Source: Halobacillus amylolyticus
Lineage (GTDB): Bacteria > Bacillota > Bacilli > Bacillales > Halobacillaceae
Length of the DNA stretch: 64,000 nucleotides
Assembly (NCBI RefSeq): GCF_022921115.1
Contig: NZ_CP095075.1
Location: forward strand, 4,042,001 to 4,106,000
Direction of reading: 5' to 3'
In this document: piece after piece, positions 500-48,165 of the stretch
Numbering within the stretch: position 1 is the stretch's first letter
Layout: each line of letters opens with the position of its first letter
The notes under the pieces: model-generated
What the model was told of the DNA's origin: nothing
The model's database searches: none
The model's input: only the letters and a program-made list of their open reading frames with translations
Position numbers and translations under genes: made by a program

Positions 500-616
500 G
501 ATGTGGTGGCGAGAGCGAAGAGGTCACACCTGTTCCCATGCCGAACACAGCAGTTAAGCTCTTCAGCGCCGATGGTAGTCGGGTCGATCCCCATGAGAGT
601 AGGACGCGGCCACGTC
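500..616 (+). rRNA. rrf: 5S ribosomal RNA
   Basis: Full-length 5S rRNA of about 117 nt. Conserved internal blocks are present (GCGAAGAGGTCACACC, then CCGAACACAGCAGTTAAG and GATGGTAGTCGGG). The terminal helix pairs GATGTGGTGGC at 500-510 with GCGGCCACGTC at 606-616 using G-U pairs. A rho-independent terminator follows directly. Confidence 0.97.
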
Positions 617-620
617 AAGT

Positions 621-650
621 AACCTCTTGGAATTATCCAAGGGGTTTTTT
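621..650 (+). terminator. rRNA operon terminator
   Basis: The stem AACCTCTTGG / CCAAGGGGTT with a short loop is followed by a T run ending at 650. It closes the rRNA operon and is the insertion landmark for the group II intron that starts two bases later. Confidence 0.9.
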
Positions 651-651
651 A

Positions 652-1175
652 GTATCCCTATATTTGGGCATAAGCTATAGGGGTTAAGTCTCTAACGCCG
701 TAGGTTGTTGTAGCCGTTAGCCAAAGACAAAGCTATCTAGAAGCCATTCGAAGCGATAGTACCTCATCTTCGAGAAGAGGAGGGAAGAGCTGAAAGATAG
801 AATGAGTACTATGTCCCTGGCGTACGCCTCATCGAAAAGATAAACCAATTCTCCTTAGGATGGCACAACTGAATGATGGAATGGTTGAGAAGAATGCTCC
901 GAATGATTCGATGGAAAGTGTGGGAGATGCCAAAGACAAAAAGAAAGCACCTAATGGCTTTAGGCGTATCAGGCAAAGGCTTTTAAACGGGGAACATAAG
1001 AAAAGGCTACAGGCTATTCGCCTGTAGCCTTTTCCTCCACCGTACGCTCAAATGACCAATATTAGCATCGAATGGGTCGTGGTTATAACGTTTGAATTCT
1101 ATTGAATCGCCGTATACGAGTCCGTCCGTACGGTGGTGTGAGAGGTCGGGCTTTAACACTCCCGCCTACTCGATT
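652..1175 (+). mobile_element. ORF-less group II intron, class C
   Basis: Seen: a 5' end GTATCCC near 652 and a domain I-like block around 675-730 (GCTATAGGGG, then GTAGCCGTTAGCC). A long perfect hairpin lies at 1001-1034 (domain III-like). Domain V is at about 1107-1137, with triad CGC at 1108-1110 and the CCGTA/TACGG lower helix. It is followed by GTGTGAGAGGTCGG, a domain VI hairpin, and a 3' end CTACTCGATT at about 1166-1175. Known: class C introns use a CGC triad and insert just behind intrinsic terminators, exactly the position seen here behind the 5S terminator. Their usual reverse transcriptase/maturase ORF is in domain IV; here only about 70 nt separate the hairpin from domain V and no RT is encoded. 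The domain V loop reads AGTC instead of a GNRA loop, which may mean weakened activity. Boundaries are estimated by similarity to the Oceanobacillus-type class C intron. Confidence 0.85.
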
Positions 1176-1208: not shown

Positions 1209-2186
1209 CTACGTTTTTTTAGGGTTTGATTTTTCTACCTGCCAATCTTTTTGGTCATCAGTCTCTAATATTCCTATTGTCACATCGACAACTCCTGGAT
1301 CTTCTAATACCTTATCTTGAACTTGATATTTGATATCATCCGCTTCTCCTAGCGTAAGTCCTTTCTTAAGCTCAATATAACTCTCAACATGATAATCTCT
1401 TCCTTCTTGGACAATTCGAAGCTTACTAATATCAACTACATTTTGATCACCTAAAATAATTTTCGCTATTCGTTCTTCAACAATTTTAGGGGCAGCTACA
1501 CCGATTAAGCCGATTGTATTTTCGTATCCAATCTTAAGAGCGATGCCAATTAGCAAGATGCCGATAATAAGGGTCCCCAAACCATCAAGAAAATATAACC
1601 CTGTAAAATGGGATAATACAACAAAAATTAACGCGATCACCGCACCGGATGTTGCCACAATATCTTCATAAAAAACAAGACGAGTCGGCGGTGCTGCCAG
1701 GCTAACATTTTTAAATGCGTTTGTAAAAATGTTACCCTCTTCTAATTTTGCACGGCTTTCTACACCAATTTCTTTCATTACTTTAATTAAGATATATCCG
1801 TCAACAATTATAGCTACTACTAATACTCCAATATTCAGCCAAATGTTAGATGCTGGATGAGGGTCCTGTATTAATCCCCATCCTTTTAAAATGGTTTCAT
1901 AGGCCATGATAGTAACAATAGTAACAGCTACAAGTACAAAGAGGTTGACAACACGTCCAAATCCAGATGGGAACCGCTCTGTAGGTTCTTTTTCAGCTAA
2001 TGCACTTCCAAAAAAAACAAACCCTTGGTTGGTTGCATCGGCTGCCGAGTGGATAGCTGTTGCGAACATCGCTCCGCTGCCGCTAATTGCAGCTGCAATC
2101 GCTTTGATAATTGCCAATAATGTATTCCCTAGGGCTGCTATACCAGATGATTTATTTCCTTTCTTGAGCAATTTTAAAAAGGCCAT
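1209..2186 (-). CDS. Cation diffusion facilitator (CDF) transporter
   Basis: 325-residue membrane protein of the CDF family, which exports divalent metal ions in exchange for protons. Hydrophobic segments lie at about 17-45, 80-100, 115-135, 175-195 and 200-222, followed by a cytoplasmic C-terminal domain with the usual alternating fold. TM2 carries H46-S-A-A-D50, matching the first half of the metal site. The TM5 pair normally HxxxD reads V171-F-Y-E-D175, so the histidine is missing. This, with the NQGFVFFG stretch after D50, resembles the SLC30A9-like branch rather than canonical zinc exporters such as YiiP. Start ATG has a GAGGGTG Shine-Dalgarno upstream. It is transcribed toward the rRNA operon, away from the next gene. 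The metal cannot be told from sequence. Confidence 0.88.
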   Translation of the reverse strand: MAFLKLLKKGNKSSGIAALGNTLLAIIKAIAAAISGSGAMFATAIHSAADATNQGFVFFGSALAEKEPTERFPSGFGRVVNLFVLVAVTIVTIMAYETILKGWGLIQDPHPASNIWLNIGVLVVAIIVDGYILIKVMKEIGVESRAKLEEGNIFTNAFKNVSLAAPPTRLVFYEDIVATSGAVIALIFVVLSHFTGLYFLDGLGTLIIGILLIGIALKIGYENTIGLIGVAAPKIVEERIAKIILGDQNVVDISKLRIVQEGRDYHVESYIELKKGLTLGEADDIKYQVQDKVLEDPGVVDVTIGILETDDQKDWQVEKSNPKKT

Positions 2187-2390
2187 AAGTTTTCACCCTC
2201 ACTGATTTAGTCAATACCTTTTTATTTTGCTTTAAAAATACAATTTTAATCTCTTATATAAGAATTAATTCCATTGTAATTTTTTCTAATGGTCTTTAAA
2301 CTGCTGATTATAAGGGACAAAAGTTTATAGGGTTATGATAAACTAATAATTAGTTTCTTTTATAAGAAAGGGGTAGTGAGGAGCTATAGT

Positions 2391-2645
2391 ATGGTGGAGG
2401 ATAAACAATCACACGTATTAGTTAAGAAATACATTGTTGTGCTTCTTTTCATTCCAGCAGAATTTTATTTATTATCATTAGGGGAAAAGGTTTCAACATT
2501 TCAACAAGTCTGTTTGAACAGTATTATCATAATGCTGGCTGTTATTGGTGTTCTAGCTGCCACTGGAAGGAATCTGTTTTATGGGGTACTGTGCTTGGCA
2601 GCGTCTCTGTTATTTACATATATGAGTTTAGTACTTATTTGGTAA
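2391..2645 (+). CDS. Small three-helix membrane protein, unknown function
   Basis: 84 residues from ATG 2391, chosen because GAGGAG at 2377-2382 sits eight bases upstream; a GTG at 2376 would lack one. Three hydrophobic stretches cover roughly residues 13-30, 40-58 and 61-83, with a short charged N-terminus (MVEDKQ). I do not recognise the family. It is a single-gene unit, divergent from the CDF transporter gene and closed by a hairpin. The clean ribosome binding site and terminator argue that it is real. Confidence 0.6.
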   Translation: MVEDKQSHVLVKKYIVVLLFIPAEFYLLSLGEKVSTFQQVCLNSIIIMLAVIGVLAATGRNLFYGVLCLAASLLFTYMSLVLIW

Positions 2646-2690
2646 AAGGCGAGAAACTTGTTAAGGTATCTCGTCTTTTACCTTTATAAG
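2643..2690 (+). terminator. Hairpin after small membrane protein gene
   Basis: GGTAAAAGGCGAGA pairs with TCTCGTCTTTTACC around a short loop (2641-2683). The arms are AT-ended, so it may also serve the opposing ytfP transcript. Confidence 0.6.
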
Positions 2691-2760
2691 CGAGTCTATA
2701 AACGAATTAAGACTGATCTAACATATAACGCTGAACTAGCTTGTTATTCAAAAACTTCCC

Positions 2761-4019
2761 CTATCCCATCGCTTCATACGCTGCATGAATACCTGCTACC
2801 CGGCCTGTAACCATAGCAGCTGTGATGTTATATCCCCTGTATAGCCATGAATATCAAGGATTTCACCACAAAAATAAAGTCCTGCCATGAGTTTTGATTG
2901 CATCGTGTTTGGTACAACCTCTTTAATTGAAACACCGCCTCCAGTGACAAAGGCTTTTTCAATTGGCTGCGAATCATGGACAGTAACATTAAAATGCTTT
3001 ACGTGTTTGACAAAACTGTGGAGTTGCTGGTTGGAGATATTTGCCGCCTTATCTTCGTGATTTATCCCATTAACCTGTAATAGATAATCAAGTAATCGCT
3101 CAGGGACTACTCCTTTAACGACATTACGAAAAGACTTTTTAGGTTGTTCTTGCAATTGAATTTGCAAATGTTCATATAATTTTTGCTCATGTTCGTCTGG
3201 TAGACAGTCAATTTCTATCGTGACGGGTCTATGACCTTTCATAAATTCTTTAACTACATACTGGGAACATCTTAGAATCGCTGGCCCCGATAAGCCGAAG
3301 TGTGTAAACAGCATGTCCATTCGATGGGTAATGATCGCTTTGTTTTTCTTATTCATAACGGAGACGTCTACATCTCTTAAGGAGAGACCCTGAAGTGCCT
3401 TATTCTGAATAAAAGAATCCTTCGATAGCAGGGGAACTTCTGTTGGAAAAAGTGTTGTTATTGTATGGCCCGCTTTTTTTGCCCACGCATAGCCATCCCC
3501 TGTACTTCCTGTGTGAGGAACAGCCTTCCCGCCGACCGCTAAAACAACGGAGCGAGTGATGATTTTTTCCTTGGACTGTAAAATAATTTGATGTTCATCC
3601 TCACCGTAAATAATGGCCTCGACAGGTGTCTTTGTACGTATGTCAACATTGAGCTCCTTAAGTCGTGAAAGAAGAGCGTTGACAACATCTTTCGCTTTAT
3701 TACTGGTCGGGAACATCCGTCCGTGATCTTCCTCTTTCAACCCAACTCCTAAATCTTCAAAAAAATCGATGATGTCATAGTTATTGAAAACAGAAAAAGG
3801 GCTGTACAGAAATTTTCCATTGCCAGGTATATGCTTAATCACTTCATCCTCTGGTAGACGGTTCGTGACATTACAACGGCCGCCGCCCGATATGGCAAGC
3901 TTTGTGCCAAGCTTGCTTCCTTTATCAAGGAGTAAAGTAGTAGCCCCTTGTTCAGCAGCTGCAATGGCCGCCATTAACCCGGATGGTCCTCCGCCGATGA
4001 TCGTTACTTGGTAGCTCAT
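2761..4019 (-). CDS. ytfP: FAD-dependent oxidoreductase YtfP (frameshifted near C-terminus)
   Basis: Flavoprotein of the HI0933/YhiN-YtfP family; the physiological substrate is not established. The FAD-binding motif GGGPSG is at residues 9-14, the family signature [10 protein letters not shown] at 44-53, and the C-terminal flavin contact DIHGYTG is near the end. As read, the frame stops at 2796 after [12 protein letters not shown]. Adding one C to the CCCC run at 2834-2837 (one G in the gene) restores the family ending [24 protein letters not shown] with a stop at 2761 and a length of about 419 residues, the family norm. A single-base deletion, probably a sequencing error, is therefore likely. 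Start ATG at 4019 is divergent from ytgP. Confidence 0.9.
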
Positions 4020-13377: not shown

Positions 13378-14232
13378 TTGGAAACAATGAAAATTGGCAG
13401 AGCTAAATTGACGTGGTTAAATGGCGGAGTCACTCATATGGATGGCGGAGCAATGTTTGGTGTCGTTCCTAAGCCACTATGGAGTCGCAAATATCCTGTA
13501 AATGATAAAAACCAAATTGAACTTCGGACTGATCCGATTTTACTTCAAGTCGATGGGAAAAATTTAATCATTGATTCCGGTATAGGTAATGGTAAGTTTA
13601 CCGATAAGCAAAAACGAAATTATGGGGTTTTTGAAGAGTCAAATATTGACCAAAGCCTAGCAGGACTGGATTTAACTCGTGCCGATATTGATCTTGTGTT
13701 AATGACCCATTTACATTTTGATCATGCGTGTGGTTTGACAGCGTGGGATCAGGAGCAACTTGTTCCAGCTTTTCCGAATGCGAAGATTTATACGAATGAA
13801 ACCGAATGGCAGGAAATGAAGAATCCGAACATTCGATCTAGAAATACGTACTGGGAAGCGAACTGGAAACCAGTAGAATCACTTGTACATACATTTTCGG
13901 ATTCTATTGACGTTTTGCCAGGCTTACAAATGATTCATACGAGCGGTCATAGTGACGGACATTCCATTATTGTCTTTGAAGATGGAGAGGAGACGTTTAT
14001 TCATATGGCAGACATCATGCCTACCCATGCTCACCAAAATGTTCTTTGGGCCCTTGCCTATGATGACTATCCAGTTACATCTGTTCATGAAAAGAAGAAA
14101 TGGATGGAGTATGGATATGGGAAAGAGGCATGGTATGTCTTTTACCATGATGCCCATTACCGTGCACTGAAATTTGATCAGCATGGGGAAGTAGTCGACA
14201 AAACAGATAGAACGGCACGTGCCTATGAATAA
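13378..14232 (+). CDS. ytnP: Metallo-beta-lactamase-fold lactonase YtnP
   Basis: 284 residues from TTG 13378, chosen because GGAGGAGGAG at 13362-13371 is well spaced and METMKIG matches the start of B. subtilis YtnP. Metal ligands HLHFDH are at 111-116, with further ligands in [10 protein letters not shown] and [11 protein letters not shown]. YtnP is reported to degrade acyl-homoserine lactone-type signals and to interfere with Streptomyces signalling. The conserved [21 protein letters not shown] lead block is present. It is a single gene between a cre-bearing promoter and a terminator. Confidence 0.9.
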
Positions 14233-47809: not shown

Positions 47810-47954
47810 ATATAAAAACCCTCCTAAATTCCAAACTATATTATAACACATCCGCTATTTAAGAGACATAACTCAACAGCAATTTATCATTGCCTTTTTG
47901 CACAGGTTATGATAATAATGGAATACAGTTAAAATATTCGTGTGATGAATGGCT

Positions 47955-48165
47955 GAAGTAAAAAGTAGATCACTAATCCAGAGAGCTGACGGTTGCTGGG
48001 AGTCAGCATACATTTACTTTTGAATTACGGTCGGGAGCAATCTTCTGGCAAGACCAGAAGACGGTTGAATAAACCGTTATCAGTGAGAGTGGCATGTCAT
48101 GTGCAACAAGGGTGGTACCGCGAAAAGACCTCGTCCCTTTTTTGGGGAAGAGGTCTTTTTTTGTT
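47955..48165 (+). promoter_or_regulatory. T-box leader of tyrS (tyrosine-specific)
   Basis: Stem I begins at about 47956 (AAGTAAA pairing with TTTACTT at 48014-48020) with AGTAGA motif and specifier codon TAC at 48009-48011. The T-box proper AAGGGTGGTACCGCG is at 48108-48122. Its TGGT (48113-48116) complements the acceptor end ACCA of tRNA-Tyr. The terminator AAGACCTC / GAGGTCTT plus T run is at 48125-48162. Uncharged tRNA-Tyr would favour the antiterminator and allow tyrS expression. Confidence 0.93.

Follow-up and report, generated by a model that had tools for sequence, protein, structure and literature searches.

According to the available text of PMC4424553, class C group II introns go in behind terminators. 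The majority of bacterial group II intron copies are truncated or inactivated (PMC4424553 and PMC4028801, accessible parts), and the class C boundaries follow the consensus 5' GUNYGCCNRGCAUGG and 3' CCUACYCGAU (PMC4028801, accessible part). Functional ORF-less introns usually have a related intact reverse transcriptase (RT) at another place in the genome; the exception cited in the available sections of PMC4424553 is C.te.I1 of C. tetani.

In the window, i.e. the whole stretch of 64,000 nucleotides of Halobacillus amylolyticus DNA that was analysed, we found a class C group II intron remnant of 523 nt at 652-1174. It resembles intact class C introns of Bacilli (L081 and L026) in the order of its parts, in its 3' end and in its place behind a terminator, with 74-88% identity in the aligned 3' pieces, but these introns have retained domain I, the 5' consensus and an open RT frame of some 411-418 residues, all of which the window copy has lost. 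Like the known truncated or inactivated bacterial copies, it consists of a partial ribozyme and an RT pseudogene; unlike them, it keeps both outer ends and its losses are internal, which makes it look like an ORF-less intron on a first inspection. It shares with the mobile ORF-less introns, namely the TeI3 series of T. elongatus (PMC2882425, available part) and the Bacillus smithii form considered below, the absence of an intact RT and an RT-end remnant beside domain V. However, those introns keep the whole core and share their genome with a matching RT, whereas the window copy has neither of these two marks of a functional ORF-less intron (a complete ribozyme core, a related intact RT in the genome).

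Structure of the element behind the rRNA terminator

A 23S rRNA gene runs into the start of the window, which opens inside it, and the operon ends with a 5S rRNA gene and an intrinsic terminator (Table 1). This terminator is the 5' exon and the target motif of the intron, which starts one base past the T run; the position is explained by the preference of class C introns for sites behind terminators, already invoked in the initial annotation. The closest RT tail (L069) served as query for a scan of genome contigs, which yielded the relatives, and among the best 80 of 105 confirmed loci a run of at least four T lies within 14 nt upstream in 43 of 58 distinct 5' flanks. The location in an rRNA operon does not make the remnant part of the rRNA; it is followed by a convergent transporter gene (1209-2186). 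Farther along the window, a T-box leader was observed at 47936-48141 on the + strand (124.9 bits).

At 1165-1174 the sequence CCTACTCGAT fits the class C 3' consensus, as had been claimed for this end, and by this fit the last intron base is 1174. The span of 652-1175 first given thus described a real element, with an end at 1175 that has to be corrected. At the other end, the sequence starting at 652, GTATCCCTATATTTGG, departs from the class C consensus (GTATCCC is read where GUNYGCC is expected), which L081 and L026 both follow. The intact relatives therefore fit both boundaries and the window element only the 3' one.

Table 1. Positions of the intron remnant's parts and of the neighbouring rRNA operon end within the window
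Feature	Position	Strand	Basis
5S rRNA gene (last gene of the operon)	502..615	+	RF00001, 80.1 bits
Intrinsic rRNA-operon terminator (hairpin 621-646, T run 645-650)	621..650	+	terminator scan; homologous intron-free terminator in G007 (L177)
5' intron end and start of domain I, degraded consensus	652..737	+	aligns with L081 1136-1220 and L067 1734-1819; 77% to L067 over 99 columns
Junction of deletion 1, loss of 240 nt (L081 1221-1460)	737..738	+	alignment with L081
Ribozyme segment past deletion 1 (remaining RF01998 region and beyond)	738..833	+	81% to L081 1462-1556, 84% to L067 2021-2115
Class C RT/maturase pseudogene, C-terminal quarter only	831..1049	+	tblastn with the L081 RT frame
Perfect palindrome within the RT pseudogene, 15 pairs, 5-nt loop	1000..1034	+	pair counts against relatives
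Domain V, CGC triad 1108-1110, loop AGTC	1105..1136	+	RF00029; fold comparison
Domain VI and 3' end CCTACTCGAT	1139..1174	+	RF00029; fold comparison; consensus in PMC4028801 (accessible part)

The Rfam model for group II domains V and VI (RF00029) matches at 1105-1174 with 37.4 bits (E 1.1e-5 in a search of 741 bases), below the gathering score of 40. The initial annotation had staked its case on such a covariance match, which does exist though under the gathering score, and the domain V with CGC triad that it had described is confirmed at the same 37.4 bits. A low-threshold Rfam search of the stretch returned, besides RF00029, only families at chance level. With 150 of 256 candidates scored, the genome-wide scan listed nine RF00029 matches; the window match is the weakest of them, and two of the nine are of the ORF-poor kind that the window element represents. 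Domain V folds like that of two relatives but is less stable (-12.7 versus -15.0 kcal/mol), with U.C in its top stem in place of the relatives' U-A pair. The distal stem of domain VI has four pairs versus six in the two relatives, with a fold energy of -12.8 versus -16.2 and -18.6 kcal/mol. All pairs of the RF00029 model are nevertheless standard in the window copy; that both domains still fold and keep standard pairs speaks for a fairly recent remnant. The whole 525-nt stretch also folds better than 100 shuffles (z -2.4), which is expected anyway for a recent ribozyme remnant.

The AGTC loop of domain V, being non-GNRA, had been taken as a sign of death. We counted the loops of the relatives: in 27 distinct 3' ends from 92 loci (41 loci could not be parsed; a stricter first pattern parsed 22) the loop is GAAC in 19, GGTC in 3, GATC in 2, GACC in 1 and irregular in 2, and GNRA occurs in 0 of 27. 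In these class C introns a non-GNRA loop is the normal state, and the AGTC loop, which is no defect in kind, was rejected as proof of death.

Domain I is incomplete, the window element lacking 240 nt in comparison to L081. Deletion 1 covers nearly all of the RF02001 region and extends 30 nt into the RF01998 region; none of the Rfam models D1-D4 matched the element at E <= 5, while RF02001 scores 136-144 bits in the intact relatives L026, L081, L084 and L089. The domain I-like features of the initial annotation are thus real in the first segment, which corresponds in the alignment to the 5' end of intact relatives, but most of the domain is absent. Deletion 2 removed about 1.05 kb (L081 1557-2611), including the first three quarters of the RT, with ATC common to both sides of a junction that sits at the start of the RT pseudogene. 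An alternative placing of this deletion by MAFFT (834-873 against L081 2001-2040) was rejected, since tblastn identifies 831-869 as the RT stretch EKIN..GWHN. Beyond deletions 1 and 2, a further loss of about 36 nt is observed relative to the intact 1,863-nt intron.

The pseudogene was read by tblastn with the RT frame of L081 (55.8% over 86 columns; the E value of 2.6e-25 counts only two short subject sequences). It has a gap of 12 residues and is interrupted in frame by a TGA and a TAA codon, and the frame shifts after it (about 1050-1080). With the RT of L026, a genome-wide tblastn returned 870-1055 of the window at 42% (E 1.6e-8), with two TGA and one TAA. What is left is only a broken C-terminal remnant, yet it is closest to the class C lineage. 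Hence the statement that no RT is encoded holds for an intact gene and fails for the pseudogene, which is still readable, and "ORF-less" does not describe the type of this intron, which is an RT-bearing one decayed by deletions. The hairpin that had been listed as a ribozyme feature is the palindrome at 1000-1034, which lies in the RT pseudogene and belongs to no ribozyme domain. Its 15 possible pairs are all formed in the window, 13 of 15 in a second copy on contig C2 and 6-12 of 15 in 16 distinct RT-coding relatives. Relative to the contig C2 copy, it shows paired changes on both arms.

Relatives, resident reverse transcriptases and empty sites

The intact relative L081 (Bacillus sp. FJAT-44742) is an intron of 1,863 nt (1136-2998) with an open RT frame and scores of 140 bits for RF02001, 65 bits for RF01998 and 47.5 bits for RF00029. 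The window element is 74% identical to it over 322 columns, and its relationship to the intact class C relatives is far beyond chance. In the congener G007, at another site, L067 (1734-2949) is an intermediate form, with a nearly whole domain I and an RT that has an internal deletion. The RT of L026 (Cytobacillus spongiae, intron 1692-3571) finds its best solved match in the GsI-IIC RT, with 557 bits over 416 residues, against 155 bits for LtrA. Taken together, the RF00029 match, the class C 3' end and the closeness of the relatives' RT to the GsI-IIC RT bear out the assignment to class C group II introns that had been made at the outset.

Two other reduced elements were observed during this comparison. 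On a megaplasmid of Carnobacterium maltaromaticum (NZ_LN846931), L029 3414-3575 is a 162-nt relic behind a terminator, with the class C 5' consensus at its start, domains V and VI at its end and nearly everything between them gone. In a phage-like record (Pseudomonas phage DVM-2008, EU982300), L031 2844-3575 is a class C remnant with RF02001 and RF00029 matches, likewise behind a terminator, in which no intact RT is annotated.

The host genome contains seven intact RVT_1 genes of group II type, coding for two kinds of 624-residue protein. The seven RT-bearing introns lie on C1 near 896k, 915k, 930k, 1.80M, 1.81M and 1.815M and on C2 near 19k; five have the same score and two stand beside them. 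At the C-terminus of their RTs there is a weak match to HNH, which at 19.7-20.3 bits falls slightly short of the Pfam cut-off. These RTs are 37-39% identical to the class C RT of L026 over about 207 residues, and their intron 3' ends do not fit the class C consensus. Both kinds have the GsI-IIC RT as best solved match, partial, with 150-170 bits over about 208 residues; this match alone does not class them, and length, HNH and 3' ends would set them apart from class C. As parents of the window element these seven introns were rejected, with RTs of 624 residues and differing 3' ends. The genome search for a class C maturase that the initial annotation had proposed as a check, carried out among the RVT_1 genes and tblastn matches, returned no intact class C RT but only the fragments in the window and on contig C2.

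The congeners G006, G007 and G008, that is three of the five with a close orthologue of the transporter gene, have the 5S gene and the terminator beside this orthologue without the intron. In the two others, G002 and G009, the orthologue is present and the 3.1 kb fetched contain no 5S gene. The other three 5S genes of the host genome are also without the intron in the about 400 nt read downstream. A second copy was found on contig C2 of the genome (145 kb) at 13672-14037 (L022 1501-2040), 82% identical over 316 columns; it is 5'-truncated within the RT and lies downstream of a transposase-like gene. Because of the empty sites and this second truncated copy, the intron lineage would once have been active in the host or have arrived with other DNA, both copies having since decayed.

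Interpretation of the window element

We assign a probability of about 0.95 to the reading that the element is a decayed RT-bearing class C intron and a dead remnant. In this scenario, such an intron would have inserted behind the rRNA-operon terminator after the split from the congeners. The greater part of domain I, three quarters of the RT gene from its start and a further short piece would then have been lost in at least three deletions, and point changes would have broken the remaining RT frame and the 5' splice consensus. The leftover (start of domain I, middle piece, RT tail, domains V and VI) would be too incomplete to fold as an active ribozyme, so that it would neither splice nor move. 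The order of events, insertion and then decay, and the loss of activity are deduced from the comparison of sequences. Of the options named in the initial annotation, we thus retain that of a dead intron, which is the most likely one because most of domain I is lost, the 5' end is broken and the maturase is missing. The points that speak against it are the domains V and VI, which fold like those of the relatives with all RF00029 pairs standard, and the better-than-shuffled folding of the stretch, although the latter is expected of a recent remnant. Among the matches listed from the literature on rRNA operons and on non-autonomous introns, none described a comparable case.

Could the host have taken over the remnant, for example with the palindrome, placed as it is between the rRNA operon and the transporter gene that converges on it, serving as a two-way back-up terminator or a stable RNA hairpin? 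In favour of this, the palindrome does sit between convergent genes, and its pairing is perfect in the window but incomplete in each of the 16 RT-coding relatives that were measured. However, the terminator scan did not flag it and its T run is only 4, and the congeners, being without the insertion, offer no conservation comparison. Quasi-palindromes of such kind can be perfected by template switching, which counts against co-option, and the palindrome at 1000-1034 was perhaps perfected in this way; a role for the host is very unlikely.

We judge it extremely unlikely that the element is still alive as an ORF-less intron for which a maturase from another locus of the genome provides splicing or mobility in trans. 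ORF-less introns served in this way are known (PMC2882425 and PMC4424553, available parts), B. smithii seems to harbour a thriving class C example, and seven intact group II-type RVT_1 proteins are at hand in the genome. But the resident RTs differ from a class C RT in their 624 residues, weak HNH match, identity of 37-39% and non-class-C intron 3' ends, and the window copy is without most of domain I and the 5' consensus, both of which the B. smithii form keeps. The suggestion that the intron depends on a maturase elsewhere accordingly finds no footing, no intact class C RT having been found in the genome and most of domain I being missing. An intact intron masked by an error of sequencing or assembly has a practically negligible probability: repeats do collapse easily and the genome holds further group II intron copies, but three deletions, several stops and the broken 5' end would all need to be errors, in a genome of 2 contigs that is 99.98% complete. 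Moreover, the contig C2 copy decayed differently, contrary to a shared mis-assembly.

A multicopy ORF-less class C intron in Bacillus smithii

On the B. smithii plasmid NZ_CP012025, L027 2936-3575 is an ORF-less class C intron of 640 nt with a complete-looking core, scoring 147 bits for RF02001, 78 bits for RF01998 and 47 bits for RF00029. In the genome G053, almost certainly that of B. smithii DSM 4216T, its type of junction occurs without mismatch at 45 places, 44 on the chromosome and 1 on the plasmid, and a reversed control gave 0. In the search for ORF-less copies 40 of 70 candidates were scored, and the 30 loci read (L180-L209) were all identical over 640 nt with different flanks, 24 of them with a T run. 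The same genome codes for five intact class C RTs and one fragment. We observed that one of its RT-bearing introns, L210, is identical to the ORF-less form over the first 538 nt and 95% identical over the last 103, the ORF deletion spanning from 11 nt before the RT start to the last dozen RT codons. The 45 copies are probably the product of a recent burst of a non-autonomous intron driven in trans, and a resident RT would be the protein acting on it.

The same deletion junction is present without mismatch in other genera (L246-L251), at 8 places in G106 and at 1 each in G063 and G265, and in 0 of 6 other genomes tested, the window's own among them. The presence of this junction across genera suggests a spread of the ORF-less form itself between species. 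Full 640-nt single matches were found in at least 5 of 397 genomes of the order (G053, G106, G063, G187 and G151; two candidates scored per genome). A comparable case is that of T. elongatus, with 17 ORF-less introns and 28 copies in all (PMC2882425, available part). The word "intron" is absent from the accessible portion of the main text of PMC4995803, on the B. smithii chromosome, and a literature search, with most subscription papers outside its reach, returned no paper with both "Bacillus smithii" and "group II intron".

Alone, the window element matters little, as one more decayed copy of a common retroelement, and it carries a caution: the absence of an ORF together with a domain V does not make an ORF-less intron. 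If confirmed, the B. smithii intron would represent a non-autonomous group II intron that occurs naturally in high copy number, in one genome with the RT that presumably drives it, and a terminator-targeting counterpart of the T. elongatus case; it may matter more than the window element and would be the better lead.
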